Of a stretch of 27,940 nt of DNA, positions 1 through 27,940 are shown in pieces. Position 1 is the stretch's first letter, and every line of letters starts with the position of its first letter. The DNA is taken from contig MU130002.1 of NCBI GenBank assembly GCA_015039465.1, positions 132,501 to 160,440 of the forward strand. The letters are read 5' to 3'. Made by a program: the position numbers and the translations under genes. The DNA comes from Phlegmacium glaucopus. Its lineage: Eukaryota; Basidiomycota; Agaricomycetes; Agaricales; Cortinariaceae. Under the pieces are notes generated by a model, which searched no databases, was not told the DNA's origin, and saw only the letters and a list, made by a program, of their open reading frames with translations.

Positions 1-3000
1 TTGGTAGGAATTCCGTCATAGTATACCGTACCTTCTGTGAGTATACATCGCAATAAAGCGAGGGTCAATGAACTCTGTGAAACAAATGAGTTATGGCTGG
101 AGTTGGGTGGAAAGTCAAACACTATACCTTTCCGCTGCCTGTCCTGCCCACTAGGTTTCACTAAATTAGCCATAGGTTTCCATGAACTGTTGAGACAAGA
201 CTTGCCGACTCCTATGCGTTCTCCGGACTTGATATGGAAGGAAATATTATGAAGAACTGCTGGGCCTGTCTGAGAAGAATCATGAGTTTGTGATTGTGCT
301 TTCAACATGAGCCACACCTCTGAATAGCGAGTTGAAAGCTTTTCCACACGGAGATCGCCGCTACTAGGCCATGCAGCAGGGGGCTTCCCAGTCTCAGTTG
401 CTTCCGGTTCATGTTCGATATCAATGTATCCTTGGATGCGCTCCAGACTACGATGATGTTAACAACATCTATGCACCGCACATCATGAGGCTCCTTACCT
501 GTTACTTTCCACTTCAAAATCGTTGAAAAATCTAACCCAGACTACGATCATACTGCAAAATTCAACGACCATATTCAATGAGAACCCGGTGTTACCAGCT
601 CCAACCGAACGGCCGTAAACTAGATAAGAAGCTAGTGCAGCGGTGAAAATAGCCCCTAAGACGTCGATTCTTACGCCAATCCATCGATTTAGATTGTAGG
701 ACATTCGCGCAACTCGGACGTAGTGATTTACCCGTTCCAGACATACAGTTTTGAAAGGAGCCTCAGCACCATATGCGCGAATTGAGACTGGTTCACATTA
801 ATAGTGTATTTAACTTAGGAAGCAGATGAACATTACCTATACCCACAATTGCTGCGCTAAAATGAGCCAGTAGCGGTGAACGTGCATTGCTGAATAACAT
901 ATGTGAACCTGTATACCAATGATAACCAGTGTTTGCCTACCTCATCTCGCGTCTGACGGATAATTGAGCTCGCAGATAGAGATTACCCAGAGAGGCGCCC
1001 AAAATTGCGACGGCAATACCGGGGAACAAGAATATTGGGGTAAAGATGACGATAACAACAAGTTTAGTGAGCATTGCTATCCCAATCTCATTCAGCGCCA
1101 CCAGTGCATCGGGTATAGGACCGTCGACAGCGCGTATATCTTGTGTACATCGAGAAATGATTCTTCCTGTCGGCGTCTCGTCTAGCCATCTATGAAATAT
1201 CCTCAGTTGTTAAGTGATTAGCTATGTTTCCTTCGAACTCACCGAAGTGTGCTTCCCAAGACCGAATCAACCAATGAAGCGTTAATCCTCCTCGATGCCC
1301 TGAGACTTCCATAGATGTAGAAGATTTCCGACGAAGCGAAAATGGCAACCATTGTACAGAGAATAAGAGAAAATTGGGCGAGGTAACTGAATGTGAGCAA
1401 CCCATCAATTCTGAACCGAATCGATGAAAGAAAAAGCCCTACGGGAATGGATTGACCTCAGAGGATGTGTGGCTTTCATACTTGGAACCCCAATATCCAA
1501 GGAACCAGGTCTGGAAAGTGTTCACGCAAGCTGTTAGAAGTGTAGCAGAAATACAGATCGAAAAGAAGGCAAGGGGATAGTCTCCTCCTAATCCAGAAAG
1601 GTAAAGTTCAATAGACTTCCATGTAACATGTCCCTCTGCAATTTCTTCTGCAATCACGAGCTTTCCATCTGTAGGCTTGTTGCTTTTGATTGTGGGCTTG
1701 ACTCCTTCAATGACTCTCCCCGGACCTTGCTCTGCTTCTGATATTAGAGAGAGGTCATTGGGTAGAGTAGAAGCAAAGTGTTCGATCCCTTGACTTCGTA
1801 CAGTACCATCTTGACCAATCGACATCACATATTGAGCAATGGGCGCAGCGAGGGCGACATTATGTGTCTTTCAAGAGACGTTGTCAACCAGGGAAATTTC
1901 CTAGAAGAGTTGTTCCTTTCTTACCACGAGTAAAACTGTTCGTCCCTTCACTAAATCGCCTCGCAAACAACGGTCAATGATCCAGGACGAGCTAACCGCC
2001 AGCCTGGTTCAGCCCAAAAAACACAGTGAACACGGGGAATGGATAGCACGTACGTGTGCACATCCAGGGCAGCGAGAATGTCGTCGAGCAGAAGTATCTC
2101 GGCCGACGAATAGATGGCTCTTGCCAGGGTGACTCTAGCCTATCAAAACGATAAAACAGTGCTGCAATAGCACTTTGAGGCGTCTCACCTTCTGCCCTCC
2201 GCTGGTACGAAGATATCAAAAGACTGCCAAAGATATCTTGAAAGATGGCTAACCTTAACGTAAGTCCTCGTTCGCCAACTTCTGTCTTATCACCAGCGTC
2301 AAATAACTCTAGATCACGTTCCAAAGCGCACTGGTGCAGGACTTGAAAAGATTGCCTCAGGTGAAGTAACAAGAGGCGAAACGAGCACGTTTCCTACCTT
2401 TCCGGTATCGAACTTCATCATACGCAGAACCGAACAAGATGTTATCGCGGATTGTTTCATTCTGAACCCATGATTCTTGTGCAGCATATGCCACACCTCC
2501 TTTCCTGGGGAGATTGAACCATACATCAGCTGTTGATGGAATGAAGTGCATCTCTCCTATCCATTGCCGTTGTAATAAGGTCTGGGAAAACATCAACCAA
2601 ACTCACCAAGTAAAGCCATCAGCACAGAAGTTTTTCCCGATCCACTGCAAATGATTGCAGTTCATATCGGTTATGCAGAAAATGAAACGCACGTAGGTCC
2701 GATGATCAGATTGATACAATCACGTTTAAATAATTGCTCGCCACCGATATGAAGCCGGAACGTCCGGTTGGATGGCGTTGAAGTACCACTAGGGGATTCA
2801 ACAGACCAGGAGAATGTAGCGTTTTTGAATCCAATCTCGTCTTCATACTGAGTTGTGGTGGGGATATCCACAATATGCGGAGGCTTATCTGCGAACGAGT
2901 CCAGCAATTCTGTTTTGTGCAGAAACTCAGTCATACGATCTAATGAGACTTTGCCTGAACAGCAAAACGTGAGAGAAATATCAAATGCGACCGAGGAGGG

Positions 3001-5776
3001 CACACCTTGAATCATAGTGCTAGTTTGTGATGACAATAGGTGTAAATGCAACCTCAACAAAGAAAATACCGTCATACTAGAGAAGATCTTGGAAGCTAGA
3101 TATATTCCCTTTTAGCAGTAAATTTATATTGCAATGTTTGACGCACCGGCAAGCTCTTGTTTCATAATCACAGTATAGGTGGCGTAGGTGACCAACATCA
3201 CAATAGAAGGGATAATGTTGCTGTAAAACGTTCAGTTCTTCCTGAACAAAACGATAGCGCAATCGGCGATCCTCACTTCGCGATCACATTTAATGTCTCT
3301 AACACCTAGCATATGATATCAAAGACAGGCAGATTGAAGGAAATGTTATTCTGCCAACCTTAAGCTTCCATAACCAACCAAGTTCATCATTTCGCTTCTC
3401 CCTAATCCTCTCCGACATGCTACGTTCCCACCCGAAGAGCTTTATCATTCGTATAACATTGACGGCTGCGAATACAAAAGCTCAAGCGTCTGAGTTGGAG
3501 ATCAAGTTAGCGTGCGATGTACCTTCTGTAACATCTTGCACTCGAGCATCCGTCTTGAATTTCAACAGAAAGTCAGGCGGGATGAGGGAGAGAAACACTA
3601 GAGGTGACAGTACCAATTTCATTCTCTGAACTTGTGTGTCTTGAATCTTTTTGGCAATATATCCGGGTATTGGAAACAGGACAAGCATCGTAGCGACACC
3701 AACGAAGGCGCTTGAGCATGAGAAAAGTGAGATTACTCTTTCAATCCAGAGTAGGAAGACAAGCCGACCTCCACCCAAGTACTTGATATAAGAATATGGT
3801 GCACAGGACCGTTTGCAGTGGGACATATAAGACTGATTGGTGTATCACAAAATGGTTCTAAATTCAAACGAAAGGACTGAAGCGTACTGATCAGAAGGAA
3901 GTCCCGTCCACCAACGATATTGCCTAAATCTGTGGTGACTAGATTGTTGATTTTACCGATGAGATTTTGTGCGCCCTTTGTGCTCTTGCTTGCTTGCTTA
4001 GCACCACTCTTGAAAGTCGATGAGTCGTCATGATCTTTTCCCTTCACACCAACCTTTGATGCGGATTGAGAGTCATTGGAAGGATCCTGAGATATGGCCG
4101 TCAAAGCTTCGGAAGGTTCACTGGCTCTCTCATCCGAATTTGCATCCATGGCTTTGCCCTCAGCGACGGATGCGCTATCTGGTGTACCAACGACAGTAAC
4201 ATTATCTTCTTCATTTGAAGCTTCAGCTTTCAAACGAATCCGTAAGCTGTGTTCGAAGACGAGCTGCGTGAGCAATCCCTCCGTGCGAACCAATGTCCTC
4301 GTTGCAATGAAGATATACCACTGGATGCATATATTTCTGATAATTGGCCCAGCAAGGAGACATAAGATCCAGAACCATGGCCGAATACGAGCACCTGCGC
4401 CACCAGTTTCCAGGTAACTGGGGGGCGATAATGAATAAAAAGTCGTTTACACAAATTATAATAACCGACTTCAACAGCCTATTTATGCCGACCGGTGCAG
4501 CAAAGACGGCAAAGACTTGTACAATGAGACACAACGAAATGATCGTATACTCCACGCCTGCCACCAAGACGTGTAATTATTGGTTATGAAATTAGCACTC
4601 GAACTCACGAAAAATACGCATTAAACCAAAGAACAAGTGTCTCCGTTTAGCACCACAGTAAGGATCTAGATGCTATACATTAAACTCAGCATGTGTTTTG
4701 TGTAAAAGATAAATATAATACCGGAAAGGCGTTCTTAGTGATATGTTGGGAATAATCCGAATCTGAAAGAGGAGGAAGTTGATCGAATCGCAAATGTGGA
4801 ACACGATAGCCTAGCATTATAACCGGATCCAGATACGTATAAAACACCAAAGCAAAAAGTGAGCACGTCTGTTCTGGATTTGGTTCTGGCATCGGATCCT
4901 ACGTATTCAGAAAATAGGTCAGCGCCTGGAAATAACATTGACCGGATGGATTAATGAACTTTTGGATCAACTGGCACATATCGACGAGGAATAAATAGTG
5001 GGATGACCACGGCCGTCAATGTAACGATGCTGAATTTGATCCAAAGCATGTAACCTTCTTGCAGATCTTTCGGTTCCTCTGTGAATGTAGCAAGGGGCCA
5101 GATATCTCTGTAGAGGTAAACTCCAAACACGCTCAACAAGACTAGGATATTGTATCGCGTCGTTGAGACGCTCCAGTGCTTTATGGTAACAGATACTATG
5201 GCCATGATAGAGGAATAGAACTAGAATTGTTTACGACTTCAGGTGTTGCAATGGAAAACGAACGAAAGGGGATTCACGAATGTCACAGTCATAAGAACCT
5301 CCAGACACCCGACGGAGAGATGCTTCAAAAGTGTGCCGACTATGTTTGAGTGATTTCTCTGGCATTTTAGCAAGGAGTTCACGGAAAGAGCGAAAAGGAC
5401 GAGACATCCAAATAAACGCGCCACCATGAACAAGTAGATCGTCCATCCACCGTGACTTTTCACCTTCTTCTTTACTGAATGCGAAAAGGTGGAAGCGGTT
5501 GCATCAACCAAAGGCTCAATCTCAAGGACGCAACCAGGCTGCCGGGAGGTGCTGATCCAATGGTGGAGAATGTGGATAGTTTGAAGGAAGAGACAGATAC
5601 ATGAAACCGCGAAGGGGACAGACCAAGAACCATATGGAAAGCTAGTGTGAGGATTGAAATGTAAATCTATTTCTGAGAAACGTCGTGGAAAAGACTTGCT
5701 TTAATTTCAATCCCTTCGCCTTAATCTGCCCATTTAACAAGAAGTTTATTGCGTTATATTCCCTCCAGGTATCCAT
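1..5776 (-). CDS. ABCC-type (MRP-like) ABC transporter, copy A, 3' end off the window
   Basis: This is a multi-exon gene for a full-length ABC exporter of the ABCC/MRP family, expected in the plasma or vacuolar membrane and driven by ATP. From the N-terminus it shows hydrophobic TMD0 segments (about 5650-4950), a linker with the motif FYTYLDPVI (about 4840), and TMD1 (about 4560-2950) carrying a Ser/Asp-rich insert (about 4230-3990). NBD1 follows with a Walker A GPTGSGKTS split by an intron (2640-2705), the signature [15 protein letters not shown] assembled from three exons (about 2270-2110), the Walker B LLLDD, and the H-loop THNVALAAP (about 1865-1835). TMD2 contains [20 protein letters not shown] (about 1180-1110). 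NBD2 stops being visible just after its Walker A (GRTGSGK, about 140). I set the start at the ATG at 5776, after a CT-rich leader, but the phase of the first intron is unresolved. No frame break was seen in the parts I joined. The transported substrate cannot be read from sequence. Confidence 0.88.
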
Positions 5777-14088: not shown

Positions 14089-15427
14089 ATGCCTCGCATT
14101 ACAGAACGCCAAGAAGACACAAATGTACTTCTCAACATATTTATTGTACACCTGCTGGCCCGCATGGAGGCAGATGCCTTTCGTGCAGGTGCTGACTCTG
14201 AGTCTGACTCAGAGGCTAGCTCAGACTCCTCACAGGCCAGTGATGACCCAATAACAGAAGGGATCATCAACTCAATTGAAGAACTCTACAAGGATAGGTA
14301 TACAGGGCCACGTCGTGACATCCCAAAGACTCAAGAAAATCTCCGCCTCCTCCTTGATGATTACCACAAACACTTTCCTGATATCTTCCGCTCCTATACC
14401 CGCATCACACCAGAATGCTTTGATGACCTCGTCAATTCTATCAAGGATCATCCTGTCTTCCACAACAATTCAAATAATCCACAAATGGCTGTCAAGGAGC
14501 AGGTGGCCATTGCACTTTACCGATTTGGGCATTATGGTAACGCTGCCAGCACCATGAAAGTTGCACTTTGGGCTGGCGTCAGCTATGGAACAGTCAGGAA
14601 TATCACAATCCGAGTCATGACAGCCCTCTGTGATCCCCGTTTTCGTGCAGCCATCATGCCTTGGCCAAATCCAGAGGAAATTGAGCGTGCAAAGGCCTGG
14701 GTGGAAGGCAATTCATGCCCAGCTTGGCGCGATGGATGGTGGATGGTGGATGGTACCCTTGTTCCCCTTTTTCAACGCCCACACCACTTTGGCAATACCT
14801 TCTTTGATCGCAAATCCAATTACTCAATGAATGTTCAGGTGTGTGATCTGCAATTACATTTTCTATGATTATTAAATTGTCCTAGGTGATCAATCGTCCT
14901 GACTTAAAGATCATTGACTATGGAATTGGCTATCCAGGAAGCCAACATGATGCAACAGCCTGGAGAGAAACTCGTCTACCTCCTGAGCATGAACAACTTT
15001 TTGGTCCAGGTGATTTTGTTTGGGCAGACTCTGCATACCCACTAAAAACATGGTGTCAAGCACCTTATAAGGAGTGAGTTATTCTATCTGAGCCATAACT
15101 ATGATATTAACATATTTCAGACCTGAAAAGTTTGATAAAGATAACACTGATCACAACTATCATGTTTCACGTATTCGAATTCGATCAGAACACTGCATGG
15201 GATACTTAAAGGGAAGATGGTCATCATTACGTGGGCTACGATTGTGGATTGATGACCCAGATGCTCACAAGCTTGCTACACTCTGGATTGCCAGCTGCAT
15301 CCACCTTCACAACTTTGCTATTGGACATGAAGGGAAAGAAAATCCAGAGGCAGACATATTCTATATTGAAGGTCACCGGTATCTAGAAAAGGAGAGAGAA
15401 GAACAGAATAGGTGGAGGGAAGAGTGA
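14089..15427 (+). CDS. Harbinger DDE transposase (DDE_Tnp_4 type), 3 exons, premature stop
   Basis: Exons 14089-14838, 14886-15073 and 15121-15427 join in frame to 414 residues. The catalytic triad of the DDE_4 endonuclease fold is visible: Asp in WMVDGTLVPLF (about residue 221), Asp in WADSAYPLKT (exon 2), and Glu in RIRSEHCMGYLKGRW (exon 3). The typical GYPGSQHDATAW block and the helix-turn-helix-like segment before the first Asp are also present. The N-terminus has a Ser/Asp-rich patch (residues 43-60). The enzyme should cut the element out by binding its ends together with the partner protein encoded at 15636-17079. The reading frame stops at TGA 15425-15427, but the same frame continues open and strongly charged to TAA at 15551-15553. 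That suggests a CGA-to-TGA change that removed about 41 C-terminal residues outside the catalytic core. Confidence 0.92.
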
Positions 15428-19263: not shown

Positions 19264-22200
19264 CTACCTCACACCAGAAGTCGAGGCTATTCCATCTGCC
19301 ATGTCATATAGCACATCCTTATCACCACTACCGTCTACTAAAGACTTCAGGAAACCGTCTGTCTTTTGGAGCAAAATTTTCGGACTGTCGAATTCAGCCT
19401 AGAAAAAGCTATCAATGAAAAGCCATGTTTCAATTTCGAGGATAACCCACAATCCGTCCATCATCAAGGACCATCTGAGCTTGGTGTTCAGTAAGAAAAG
19501 AAAAGAAAAGTTACGTTGACATACTATTCTGTCGGCATCCATGATTGTCTGCAGTCGATGAGCAATGGTGATAATAGTAACATCTGAACTCATTTTGTGT
19601 CGCAAAGTAGTTTGAATGATGGAATCTGTCTTGTAATCTGAAATCATATATTATAGAGGCCAAAGAGAAGCAATCATAATGGTCAAACACACCGATGGCA
19701 GAGGTTGCTTAAGAAAGAAAACTGGAGTCAACATTGTGGAGTCCATAAAAGACCGCACAACTCACCTTCATCTAAAATCAGGAGCTTGCTTCCTCGAACA
19801 ATTGCACGAGCCAAAGCAATGATCTGTCGCTGACCAACAGATAAATTACCGCCACCGCTAGCTATGTTGCTGTCCAAAGTTAGACGAGCTTCCTCAAGTT
19901 CTTCTTGAAGTGAAAACAGTCCCGCAGCACGCAAGGCATCATTCAAAGTAGCATCATCATGTTGCTCGAACGGATCCAAATTACGCCGGAGTGTACCTAC
20001 CCACTTGATAAGCCAGAAGGGCTAAAATGTCCTTGATGAGTACGCACCACTTAAAAGTTCGGGCTTGGAGGAGAGAATATGTCAGTAATCAACGACAATG
20101 CTTATCACACCCACTCACAGTTTGCGGAATGATGGTGATATTTGATCTCAATGCATCCAGATTGATTTGGTTGGTAGGAATTCCATCATAGTATACCGTA
20201 CCTTCTGTGAGTATACATCGCAATAAAGCGAGGGTCAATGAACTCTGTGAAACCAATGAGTTATGGCTGGAGTTGGGTGGAAAGTCAAACACCATACCTT
20301 TCCGCTGCCCGTCCTGCCCACTAGGTTTCACTAAATTAGCCATAACATTTTATGAACTGTGGAGACAAGACTTGCCAACTCCTATGCGTTGTCCTGACTG
20401 GATATGGAAGGAAATATTGTGAAGAACCACTGGGCCTGTCTGAGAAGAATCGTGAGCGTCTGATTATGCTTTCAACATGAGCCACACCTCTGAATAGCGA
20501 GCTGAAAGCTTTTCCACACGGAGATCGCCACTAGTAGGCCATGCGGCAGGGGGCTTCCCAGTCTCAGTTGCTTCCGGTTCATGTTCGATATCAATGTATC
20601 CTTGGATGCGCTCCAGACTACACGGGACAATGTTGAAGCCATTTATGCACCACACATCATGATGCTTCTCACCTGTTGCCTTGCACTTCAAACTCGTTGA
20701 AAATTCTAACCCACCACAAGATCATAGTGCAAAATTCAACGACCATATTCAATGAGAACCCGGTATTACCAGCTCCAACCGAACGGCCGTAAATTAGATA
20801 AGAAGCTAGTGCAGCGGTGAAAATAGCCCCTAAGACGTCGATTCTTACACCAATCCATCGATTCAGATTGTAGGACATTCGGGCAACTCGGACGTAGTGA
20901 TTTACTCGTTCCAGAGACCTGGTTTTGAAAGGAACCTGAGCACCATAAGCGCGAATCGAGACTTTGTCGCATTAAGAGTATGTTTAAATTAAGAAGTAGA
21001 TGAACGTTACCTATACCCACGATTGCTGCACTAAAATGAGCCAGTAGTGGGGAACGTGCATTGCTGAATAACATATGTGAATGGTATATAAATGATAACC
21101 AGTGTTTGCCTACCTCATCTCGCGTTTGACGGATAGTTGAGCTCGCAGATAGAGATTACCCAGGGAGGCGCCCAAAATTGCGATGGCAATGCCGGGGAAC
21201 AAGAATATTGGGGTGAAGATGACGATAACAACAAGTTTAGTGAGCATCGTTATCCCGATTTCAGTCAGCGCTGCAACTACACCGGGTATAGGACCGTCGA
21301 CAGCGCGTATATCTTGTGTACATCGAGAAATTATCCTTCCCGTCGGGGTCTCGTCTAGCCATCTAAGAGATATTGTGAGTTGTTAAGTGATTAGCTATGT
21401 TTTCTTCGAACTCACCGAAGTGTGCTTCCCAAGACCGAATCAACCAATGAGGCACTGATCCTCCTCGATGCCCTGAGGGTTCCATAGACATATAAGATAA
21501 ACGACGCAGTGTAAATGACAACCATTGTAGAGAGAATGAGAGAATATTGCGTGAGGTAACTGATTTTGAGCACGTCATCAATTATGGGCCCAATGTATGA
21601 AAGACAGCCTAGCCTTACGGCAATGGATTGACCTCAGGGGAGGTGTGGGTTTCGTACTGAGAACCCCAATATCCTAGGAACCAGACTTGGAAAGTGGACA
21701 CCCAATCTGTTAGGAGTGTAGCAGAAATCCAGATCGAAAAGAACATAAGAGGATAGTCTCCTCCTAATCCAGAAAGGTATAGCTTCATAGACTTCCATGT
21801 AACATGTCCCTCTGCAATTTCTTCTGCAATCACGAGCTTTCCCTCTGTAGACTTGTCCCCTTTGATTCTGGGCTTGACTTCTTCAATGACTGTCGCCAGA
21901 ACTTGCTCTGCTTCTGATACTAGAGGTGGGTCATCGTCTAAAGTAGAAGCGAAGTGTTCGATCCCTTGACTTCGTACAGTACCATCTTGACCAATCGACA
22001 CCACATGTTGAGCAATGGGCGTAGCAAGGGCGACATTATGCGTCTTTCAGGAGACGTTGTCAGCCAGAGAAATTGCCTAATAGAATTGTTTATTTCTTAC
22101 CACGAGCAAAATTGTTCTTCCCTTCACTAAATCACCTCGCAAACAACGGTCAATGATCCAGGACGACCTAATCGCCAGCCTGGTTCAGCACAAAACACAC

Positions 22201-25200
22201 AGTGAATAGATAGCACGTACGTGTGCACATCCAGGGCAGCGAGAATGTCGTCGAGCAGAAGTATCTCAGCCGACGAATAGATGGCTCTTGCCAAGGTGAC
22301 TCTAGCCTATCAAAAAGATAAAACAGTGCTCGCAAGAGCGCTTTGAGGCGTCTCACCTTCTGCCCTCCGCTAATACGAAGATATCAAAAACTGCGCAGAT
22401 GATCTGAAAAGACGGCAAACCTTAATGTAAGTCCTCGTTCTCCAACTTCTGTCTTATCACCAGCATCAAATAGCCCCAGGTCACGTTCCAAAGCGCACTG
22501 GTGGAGGACTTGAAAGGGATGGCTCAGACGAAGCAACAAGAGCCGAAACGAGCATGCTTCCTACCTTTGCGGTATCGAACTTCATCATACGCAGAACCGA
22601 ACAAGATGTTATCGCGGATTGTTTCGTTTTGAACCCATGATTCTTGTGCAGCATATGCCACACCTCCTTTCCTGGGGAGATTGAACCATGCATCAGCGGT
22701 TGATGGAATGAAGTGCATCTCTCCTATCCATTATCGACTATTAACTGTAATAAGGTTGAAAAAACATCATCCGAACTCACCAAGTAAAGCCATCAGTATA
22801 GACGTTTTCCCCGATCCACTGCAAATGATTACAATTCATATCGGTTATGTATAAAACACGAAAACTCACGTAGGTCCGATGATCAGATTGATACAATTAC
22901 GTTTAAACAATTGCTCGCCACCGATATGAAGCCGGAACGTCCGGTTGGATGGCGTTGAAGTACCACTAGGGGATTCAACAGACCAGGAGAATGTAGCGTT
23001 TTTGAATCCAATATCGTCTTCATACTCAGTTGTGGTTGGGATATCAACCATACTCGGGGGCTTATCTGCGAACGAATCCAGCAACTCTGTATTTTGCAGA
23101 AAGTCGGTCATACGATCTAATGAGACTTTGCCTGAACAGCAAGCGTGAGCGAAAGACCAAATCCAACCGAGCAGGGCACACCTTGAATCGTAGTGATAAC
23201 TTCATTTGTGAAGCGGTATAACTGCATCCTCAACAAAGAAAACACCGTCATACTGGAGAAGATCTTGGAAGCTAGATATATGTCCCTTTTAGCAGTAAAT
23301 TTCCATTGCTATGTTTGACGCACCGGCAAGATCTTGTTTCATAATGACAGTATAGGTGGCGTAGGTGACCAACATCACAATAGTAGGGATGATGTGGCTG
23401 TAAAACATTGGGTTCTTCCTATATAAACGATAGCGCAATCGGCGACGCTCACTTTGTGATCCCACCCAATGTCTCTAACACCTAGCATATGATATTAAAG
23501 ACAGGCAGATTGAAGGAAATGTTATCCTGCCAACCTTAAGCTTCCATAACCAACCAAGTTCATCATTTCGCTTCTCCTTCATCCTCTCCGACATGCTACG
23601 TTCCCACCCGAAAAGCTTGATCATTCGTATAACATTGACGGCTGCGAATATAAAAACTCATCCGTCTGAGATCATGATTGCGTGCGATATACCTTCTGTA
23701 ACATTTTGCACTCGGGCATCCGTCTTGAATTTCAACAGACAAGTCAGTGAGATCAGAAGGGAAACACCAGATGTGACAGTACCGATTTCATTCTCTGAAC
23801 TTGTGCGTCTTGAGCTTTTTTGCCAATATATCCGGGTATCGGAAACATGACGAACATCGTAGTGAGACCAACGAAGGCGCTTTAACATGAGAAAAGTAAG
23901 ATTACTCTTTCAATTCAGAATAGGAAGGCAAGCCGACCTCCATCCAAGTACTTGGTACAAGAACACGGTGCACAGAACCATTTGAAGTGGGACATCTAAG
24001 ACTAGCTGGAGTATCAGACAATAATTCTAAACCCGAACAAACAGGACTGAAGCGCACTGATGAAGAGGAAGTCCCGTGCTTGAACAATATTGCCTAAATC
24101 TGTGGTTACTAGATTGTTGATTTTACCGATGAGATTTTGTGCGCCCTTTGTGCCCTTGCTTGCTTGCTGAGCGTCACTCTTGAGAGTCGATGAGTCGTCC
24201 TTATCCTTTCCCTTCACACCAGCCTTTGAGGTGGATTGAGAGTCACTGGAGGAATCCCGGGATACGGCCATCGAAGCTTGGGAAAGTTCACTGGTTCTTT
24301 CATCCGAATTTGAATCGATGGCTTTGCCCTCAGCGACGGATGCGCTATCTGGCGTGCCAACGACAGTAACATTATCTCCTTCAATTTTTTCATTTGAAGC
24401 TTCAGCCTTTAAACGAATCCGTAAGCTATGTTCGAAGACTAGCTGTGTGAGCAATCCCTCTGTGCGAACCAACGTCCTTGTTGCAATGAAGATATACCAC
24501 TGGAAGCATATATTTCTGATAATCGGCCCAGCAAGAAGCCATAAGATCCAGAACCATGGCCGAATACGAGCACCTGCGCCACCGGTTTCCAGGTAACTGG
24601 AGGCAATAATGAATGAGAAGTCGTTTGCACAAATTACAATTTATGATAACTGACTTCAGTAGCCTATTTATGCCGATCGGTGCAGCAAACACGGCAAAGG
24701 TGGATCCAATGAGACACAACGAAAGGATCGTATACTCCACGCCTGCCATCAAGACGTGTAATTATTGGTTATGAAATTTGACTGCTAGCACTCGAACTCA
24801 CGAAAAACGCGCATTAAACCAAAGAACAAGTGTCTCCGTTTAGCACCACAGTAAGGATCTAGGTGCTATACATCAAATTCAGCATGTGTTTTGGTTGTGT
24901 CAAAGATAAATATAATACCGGAAAGGCATTTTTAGTGATATGTTGGGAATAATCCGAATCTGTAAGGGGAGGAAGCTGATCGAATCGCAAATGTGGAACA
25001 CGATAGCCTAGCATGATAACCGGATCCAGATATGTATAAAACACCAACGCAAAAAGTGAGCACGTCTGTTCTGGATTTGGTTCTGGCATCGGATCCTATG
25101 TAAACAAAATAGGTCAGTGCCTGGAAATAACATTGACTGAATGGATTAATGAACCTTTGGATCAACTGGCACATATCGACGAGGAATAAATAATGGGATG

Positions 25201-26410: not shown

Positions 26411-26928
26411 AACTGCTATTCGTGAAACGATGCGTACTCCGTGGTCGTCGCATACAACTGCTACAGATTCAGAGACCTTCTCAAATTTCACTACATACTA
26501 CTGCTGCAAGTACTTCTGACCCTGACCTAGATCCACTTGAATTCAATTTCTTCGTTCACATCGTCACAAAAAAAATGTACTGACTAATTCCAATTTCGCA
26601 GCAACCGTGGGCTGGGAATTCTTAATTTGTTATTCCACAATAGGTTGTTCAGAGTAGACGATTTGGGCTTGATTTGAACTTGATTTGAGTTTGATTGAAT
26701 TTTCATTTGAGACACGGCAGTGGTGGTGGGCAATGCCTGTTACCGATTTGGCAGCGTTACGTCACGTCACGACGCCAAATACGTGACAAAGTGTGAAACA
26801 AGCTTACTCACTCAGTTCTGCCCTGTTTTGGATGATTTTTTTTGTATTATAAATGTATTATAGTATCATAGGAACATGTAGTGAATTATATTTATGACAA
26901 AAAATGGTAATTATACTGCAAAATTAAC
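26411..26928. other. Intergenic between copy B and the right-hand pseudogene
   Basis: Up to 26640 this is upstream sequence shared with copy A. From 26641 to 26928 the DNA is unique in the window. It contains a degenerate tandem run of TTGATTTGAACTTGATTTGA-like words (about 26668-26710), a cluster of CACGTCACG/ACGTGAC words (26759-26787), then AT-rich sequence that is probably the 3' untranslated region of the minus-strand gene ending at 26929. The break in homology at 26640 may mark one end of an inserted element. Confidence 0.5.
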
Positions 26929-27059
26929 TCAACTGTCTGATTCATCATCTTCTGACTCCCAAGCAAACTCTTCCCCAGTATCATCTTCTATCTCCACTGT
27001 AGGAACCCACTCCCCTTGCCTGTGTAGGTGAATTGAATACATCAGGGCTTTCTTAGATA
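26929..27059 (-). pseudogene. C-terminal end of a degenerate gene of unknown family
   Basis: On the minus strand a frame of 43 codons ends at TGA 26929-26931 with an acidic tail (TGEEFAWESEDDESDS). The residues before it read KKALMYSIHLHRQGEW. It is the natural continuation of the protein hidden in the mirrored block 27060-27940: when that block is reversed in place, the codon AGG joins GTA TCT AAG AAA across the boundary with the frame kept. I recall similar proteins as an abundant mushroom family of unknown function, possibly transposon-borne, but cannot verify this here. Confidence 0.7.
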
Positions 27060-27940
27060 CCTTACGGGAGGTAACATGTCGTTGATTCTGACTTTACCGT
27101 CAAAATCGAAATATACGAGTTCGTTAATGTGTAGGAATATACTTCCAACATGCACGTTGACCTCTTTTTGTTCTTTTATACGAGTTAGAACCAGGTAAAG
27201 TAGTTTCCCAAGTTTTAGTATACATTGCGTAGTAACCACTAGGATTTAAAGAAGAACCTGGTTTACGTCGAATACTTTACCCAAGAGATCTACCTTTCCT
27301 GACTTTAAAGGTCTTTAAAAATTACGATAAGTTTTCTATAGTGGTCTCGAAGGGGTGGAACTCGGAGAGAACCAAAGTAAAAAGTTTCCTCGTAGATTTT
27401 GAACCTTTACCAAATGAAGACTTAAACGTGGACCACCAAATTAACTACTCCGTTGTCACCTTCTCTCTCTTGAACGTACCTACGGTCGATGTTTACTACA
27501 GTTACTTCCACGAGAACCTAGTAAGGCACAAGATGAGGCGGCGGTTGGAGTTGACTGAGTCGTCCCAATATTACGAAATAGGTACAAGAAGGCTTTACTA
27601 TGTCTTCGTAAATACTTCCGTTTTAAGTGTCTTTTCCTTCTGGTAAGTAAGAACGCGTCACTCCGTGCACTTTATTTTCCTCTACTTTTCTTTTTCTTCG
27701 ACCTCATACACTAAGTGTTACTTCGGGCACGACTTGTTGTTCGTCGGTGGTCCTATTTTTGATTTCTCTCTTCCGTTTATCTACGTCTTACCCGTCGACT
27801 TCAGTCTTATTTGGAGTTTTCTTGGTGGAAAAGTCTAAATTTTCCGGATCGAGACTTCTTCGTTAACTTTTATAAGTTCGAACGACCTCGTGGTTTAGAC
27901 TTCTTTTATTTATGTTCATGGTTCCACCCACTGTAATCCC
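27060..27940. other. Mirror-image block: sequence reversed without complementing, hiding a pseudogene
   Basis: Neither real strand here encodes anything convincing. The simple complement read left to right does. From 27307 to 27939 it has 211 codons without a stop, with sequence such as FTSEFAPGGLIDEA, LAWMPATNDVNEGALGSFRV and NALSMFFRNDTEAFMKAKF. From 27062 the same reading in another phase gives ALHCTATKTEMAVLALYAQA and HPYMKVVRATGEKQENMLNL. Two defects separate the parts: a stop at 27224-27226 and a one-base loss near 27304, where the frame shifts. Reversing 27060-27940 (limits uncertain by two bases at each end, because the end bases are identical) turns it into an ordinary minus-strand gene that continues into 27059-26929. 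A natural inversion would be the reverse complement, which this is not. The block ends at, or within two bases of, the end of the window. Confidence 0.9.

Follow-up and report, generated by a model that had tools for sequence, protein, structure and literature searches.

Gap filling is known to leave faults in genome assemblies, usually wrong copies, inverted (reverse-complement) pieces and collapsed repeats. A reversed but non-complemented symmetry is also known from mirror repeats of the H-DNA type, which are short and compositionally biased. Here we describe a window of 27,940 nucleotides from Phlegmacium glaucopus (the NCBI name of the fungus that we take to be Cortinarius glaucopus), which covers positions 132501–160440 of contig MU130002.1 (C10 hereafter) in a genome assembly of 60.5 Mb and 259 contigs. 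Alignment to un-mirrored repeat copies showed that the last 890 bp of the window (27051–27940) are an in-place reversal, without complement, of the 3′ part of a putative transposase gene. This mirror block is a data artefact and not a biological feature.

Mirrored blocks differ from the usual gap-fill faults in having the right letters in mirror order. The block has the symmetry of mirror repeats, but it is 890 bp long and mostly coding, and its un-mirrored match lies at other loci. It also resembles a natural inversion, as the order is reversed in place between fixed junctions; however, mirrored blocks are uncomplemented and would need parallel strands, and we know of no polymerase or recombinase that yields a parallel-strand product. 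The likeness to PBJelly-type gap-fill errors is that a patch stands between the contig end and the remaining Ns, or closes the gap fully, with patch lengths of less than 1 kb up to 3 kb. In the passages on gap treatment in the PBJelly paper, it is reported that flank extension shortens gaps and leaves the remaining Ns, that in closed gaps all Ns are replaced, and that fill identity was about 97% in a simulated test (PMC3504050).

Extent of the mirror block and its natural copies

The letters of the window are identical to those of the genome assembly. A run of 2,938 Ns starts directly after window base 27940, and the block ends at the window end because this gap begins at the next base; Ns also stand directly before the window start (C10:124728–132500). 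The earlier note on this DNA, made from the letters of the window, had claimed a non-complemented mirror image at the window end. This was confirmed by the match of the reversed block to two un-mirrored copies, L011 on C106 (96.7%) and L012 on C75 (96.6%), over 891 columns with one gap; a third copy, L013 on C195, matched at 94.4% over 889 columns with one gap. The proposed start at 27060 proved to be nine bases late in the L012 alignment, and the error had gone unseen because nine bases (three codons) preserve the frame. At the true junction, the contig end and the gap-side end of the block fall on consecutive L012 bases, with no base lost or repeated (Table 1).

Table 1. Features of the window (window coordinates) and mirrored blocks by scaffold
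Feature	Position	Strand	Remark
Mirror block, reversed non-complemented gap-fill patch	27051..27940	.	Flush with N gap C10:160441–163378
End part of this repeat copy in correct orientation (transposase-like C-terminal codons and 3′ flank); last stretch of the contig ahead of the patch	26720..27050	-	97–98% to L011/L012; stops at L012 1407
Junction, original contig / reversed patch	27050..27051	.	Window 27050 at L012 1407, window 27940 at L012 1408
Run of 221 sense codons, complement read left to right	27277..27939	.	210 aa 91% identical to residues 733–942 of the intact copy L013:529–3474
Spurious 101-aa open reading frame as written, product of mirroring	27341..27646	+	Surrounding 27239–27643 without protein match at E ≤ 1
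Mirrored blocks by scaffold			C10 (four), C200, C75 (left, right), C191, C189, C8
Mirrored blocks by scaffold, rest			C198, C224, C45, C107, C105, C106 (two)

When the complement was read left to right, 210 amino acids of the block were 91.4% identical to the intact 982-aa protein of L013 (E 2e-129), and an adjoining second frame gave 119 aa at 72% (E 1e-52). The best value among the ten other frames (six natural, one remaining complement and three reverse) was E 0.29. No natural frame matched this protein. The stop-free run is protein-like in this direction, as had been proposed, but it extends over 221 codons and not 211 (27307–27939); upstream of it, the block's copy has a frameshift and stops. 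It had also been stated that open reading frames (ORFs) as written inside the block are invalid, and this agrees with our finding that the listed ORF is spurious. A search with the surrounding stretch found no public protein derived from the mirrored ORF at E ≤ 1, although two candidates shared words. With 40 out of 53 candidates scored, a search with the natural copy gave at least 42 matches in the assembly, several of them fragments of a single element.

Mirrored blocks elsewhere in the assembly

A search with the block as written gave 11 matches, namely itself, C200 (97%), C191 (98%) and, at 67–77%, eight older relatives. All 11 lie in mirrored blocks; ten of these adjoin an N gap, and the remaining one, on C224, is an N-free stretch. 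In total, we counted 17 mirrored blocks on 12 scaffolds, fifteen firm and two weaker; the 16 besides that of the window (14 firm, two weaker) either border a gap or lie within a closed one. The right flank on C75 was counted as weaker because it is mirrored by score while its short homology matches fall on both strands, and so was the flank at C106:112466, which has a score of −7.2, one exact mirror match of 45 bp and two at 77–78% identity. The C224 stretch (roughly 119340–121990; L047, L042, L048) contains no Ns, and its flanks read naturally, the left by score and a 73% match and the right only by score. The stretch is consistent with a gap that was closed completely, and closed gaps of this kind can conceal the fault where no N marks the site.

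Four of the 12 gap edges of C10 are mirrored, all left of the gap, and mirrored right flanks occur on other scaffolds, e.g., C191. Mirrored bases make up 6,809 of the 162,816 non-N bases of C10 (4.2%), a value for one repeat-rich scaffold and not a genome estimate. Among 29 gap edges with at least 300 bases examined, 15 had a negative score in the Markov comparison described below and one more was mirrored by alignment; as eight of these 16 edges were chosen via the mirror search, 15/29 is not a rate.

The junctions were exact. In seven of seven junction-aligned blocks (738–3003 bp long; C10 gaps 13401, 88144, 111212 and 160441, C200, C75 left and the C191 right flank), the final base of the contig and the gap-side base of the block stand next to each other on an un-mirrored copy, although in C200 the gap-side base is mismatched, so that the two are consecutive by position only. 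The alignment was partial at C10 gap 13401 (about 400–450 of 1,510 block bases) and at C75 (915 of 1,512). The in-place reversal affects differing kinds of sequence, including the transposase-like repeat, an ABC-transporter-like tandem unit and other repeats. C10:85141–88143, when reversed, matched window 274–3250, which belongs to this tandem unit, at 91%; the ABC label rests on ORF reading, and Pfam gave no match for the two short pieces tested.

All eight of the mirrored blocks compared matched un-mirrored sequence once reversed, with best matches of 404–3003 bp, while as written none of the eight gave a match at E ≤ 1e-6 to either strand of the un-mirrored sequence examined. As a control, 1-kb pieces were taken from un-mirrored sequence and reversed. 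With the dust filter on, only three of these 205 pieces matched un-mirrored sequence (longest 90 bp); with dust off, there were 51 matches from 12 of them (longest 158 bp). Away from gaps, C10 has a short natural mirror match (90 bp, 87%) between 19928–20014 and about 20323–20408 (L019/L020).

We also used a homology-free score: with C10 as training sequence for an order-5 Markov model, the value for the mirror reading is subtracted from that for the natural one. Across 156 interior C10 windows of 800 bp, the mean was +20.5 (standard deviation 14.5), and the scores were −30.7 for the window block, −52.8 for the C200 block and +38.3 for a natural copy. Viterbi segmentation of all C10 (190,843 bp, six gaps) gave three mirrored segments, each flush with a gap, and the fourth C10 block (109806–111211), for which the score was ambiguous, was added by alignment. 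On C198, the Viterbi block begins 115 bases from the gap, and the 450-bp edge scored −19.5.

Origin of the mirrored blocks

We consider it very likely that the reversed block adjoining the gap came from a gap-filling step, probably PBJelly with PacBio reads, which spliced in a minus-strand patch complemented but unreversed. The blocks would be patches from a long-read extension step performed by a PBJelly-type tool. If the local consensus was built on the minus strand, it would be R, the reverse complement of the true patch F; complementing R without reversing it would give F in reverse, which is the observed order, and this would be the simplest single slip. If minus-strand patches alone were flipped, roughly half of all patches would be mirrored. 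A record fault from assembly or gap filling, and not recombination, had also been named in the earlier note, and the identity of the letters with the assembly, the adjoining N gap and the 16 further blocks all favour it. It is reported, in a methods sentence on a set of genomes including Cortinarius glaucopus, that the Joint Genome Institute used ALLPATHS-LG and then PBJelly patching for hybrid assemblies (PMC7550596).

The reversal may instead have come from another step, such as a finishing script written in house, a different gap-closing tool or the conversion of a patch list to FASTA, which we regard as possible but the less probable source. In its favour, PBJelly is inferred from a sentence that covers a set of genomes, and the patches are clean in sequence. 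Against it, the partial extension and full closure published for PBJelly fit both types of block, those beside Ns and that without Ns, although other gap fillers may do the same.

Several observations weigh against the gap-filling explanation or the evidence used for it. No PBJelly fault of such a kind was found in the titles and abstract openings of the literature searched; the phrase "reversed but not complemented" occurs in PMC8920891, a paper on regulatory elements. Three transposon blocks have 0–1 gaps per 740–1174 columns and C75 has two in 917 against L011, and we would expect raw early PacBio consensus to be less clean than these patches. The mirrored flanks of C10 are all left (0/6 right), a pattern only weakly expected under a strand-random rule, and some gap edges are unmirrored. 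As to the Markov score, nine of the 156 interior C10 windows, all outside mirrored blocks, were negative, and the G+T-rich, unmirrored C10:8101–8900 (L018) scored −40.1, below the window block. Used alone, the score also overlooked the edge at C10:111211, which gave +4.7 over 450 bp. C10:8101–8900 is probably a Markov false positive caused by low-complexity sequence. With dust off, this stretch was seen to match its own reversal in short pieces. Because negative windows occur outside mirrored blocks, the Markov score supports mirroring but does not decide it; the alignments do.

That the window alone was altered, by a deliberate edit or a cutting fault, is very improbable, unless the copy of the assembly used for comparison had itself been changed. 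The block end coincides with the window edge, and the earlier note had taken this as a pointer to data handling and had listed deliberate editing among the explanations. Both are superfluous, since the edge is the start of the N gap, the assembly has identical letters and 16 other blocks exist (14 of them firm). The probability that the fungus itself carries a real mirror duplication or reversal is next to negligible. Beyond the letters, nothing speaks for it but the short mirror matches that occur naturally in the sequence examined (at most 90 bp with the dust filter on and 158 bp with it off), whereas no templated process is known to join parallel strands, the blocks found border gaps or, in one case, occupy a stretch that fits a closed gap, no base was lost or repeated at the seven aligned junctions, and unlike kinds of sequence are affected in the same way.

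Two further candidates were rejected. A complement step failing on lowercase letters would yield the in-place complement of F and not the observed reversal, so it was ruled out by reasoning, and a natural inversion was rejected as the mirrored blocks as written had no reverse-complement match to the un-mirrored sequence examined (0/8, E ≤ 1e-6).

The underlying gene, neighbouring elements and significance

The true sequence under the block comes from a multi-copy gene, of which it forms the 3′ part, and the product of this gene is predicted to have a Hermes/hAT-like DDE transposase fold. The modelled protein has an RNase H-like DDE fold with a helical insertion. Compared with Hermes/hAT transposases, its sequence identity is 13%, and it has a long N-terminal helical region. 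The hallmarks of hAT elements are terminal inverted repeats and an 8-bp target duplication. The Pfam search with the transposase-like protein gave no match above the cut-off, and a PDB sequence search from the protein alignment yielded only weak N-terminal matches, most of them to coiled-coil proteins.

Two copies of the ABC-transporter-like gene lie in the window (1–4500 and 20171–24685) and belong to a tandem array on C10. Natural copies of the array are at C10 119543, 132501 and 152671, and a fourth is cut by the mirrored patch at 85141–88143. The ORFs at window 14089–15427, the first of which has a weak match to DDE_Tnp_4 (PF13359) below the cut-off, are presumably a remnant of a Harbinger-type transposase, which we consider likely.

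Mirror blocks resemble unique, homologue-free DNA; they mask genuine genes and repeats, give rise to spurious ORFs and can be mistaken for orphan sequence. They can be detected without reads by searching with reversed gap flanks and, less surely, by the order-5 Markov comparison, so that screening could pick out and flag affected assemblies. More tentatively, and with somewhat more doubt than belief, we suggest that a widely used step of long-read patching mishandled strands and wrote a large share of patches backwards, here and possibly in other hybrid genomes of the same period. If so, public databases would carry mirror DNA that is unrecognisable to ordinary alignment, repeat masking and gene prediction, and a natural-versus-mirror Markov scan together with reversed-flank searches would reveal it everywhere. 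For the biology of the fungus the finding brings nothing new, and its relevance lies in genome quality control.
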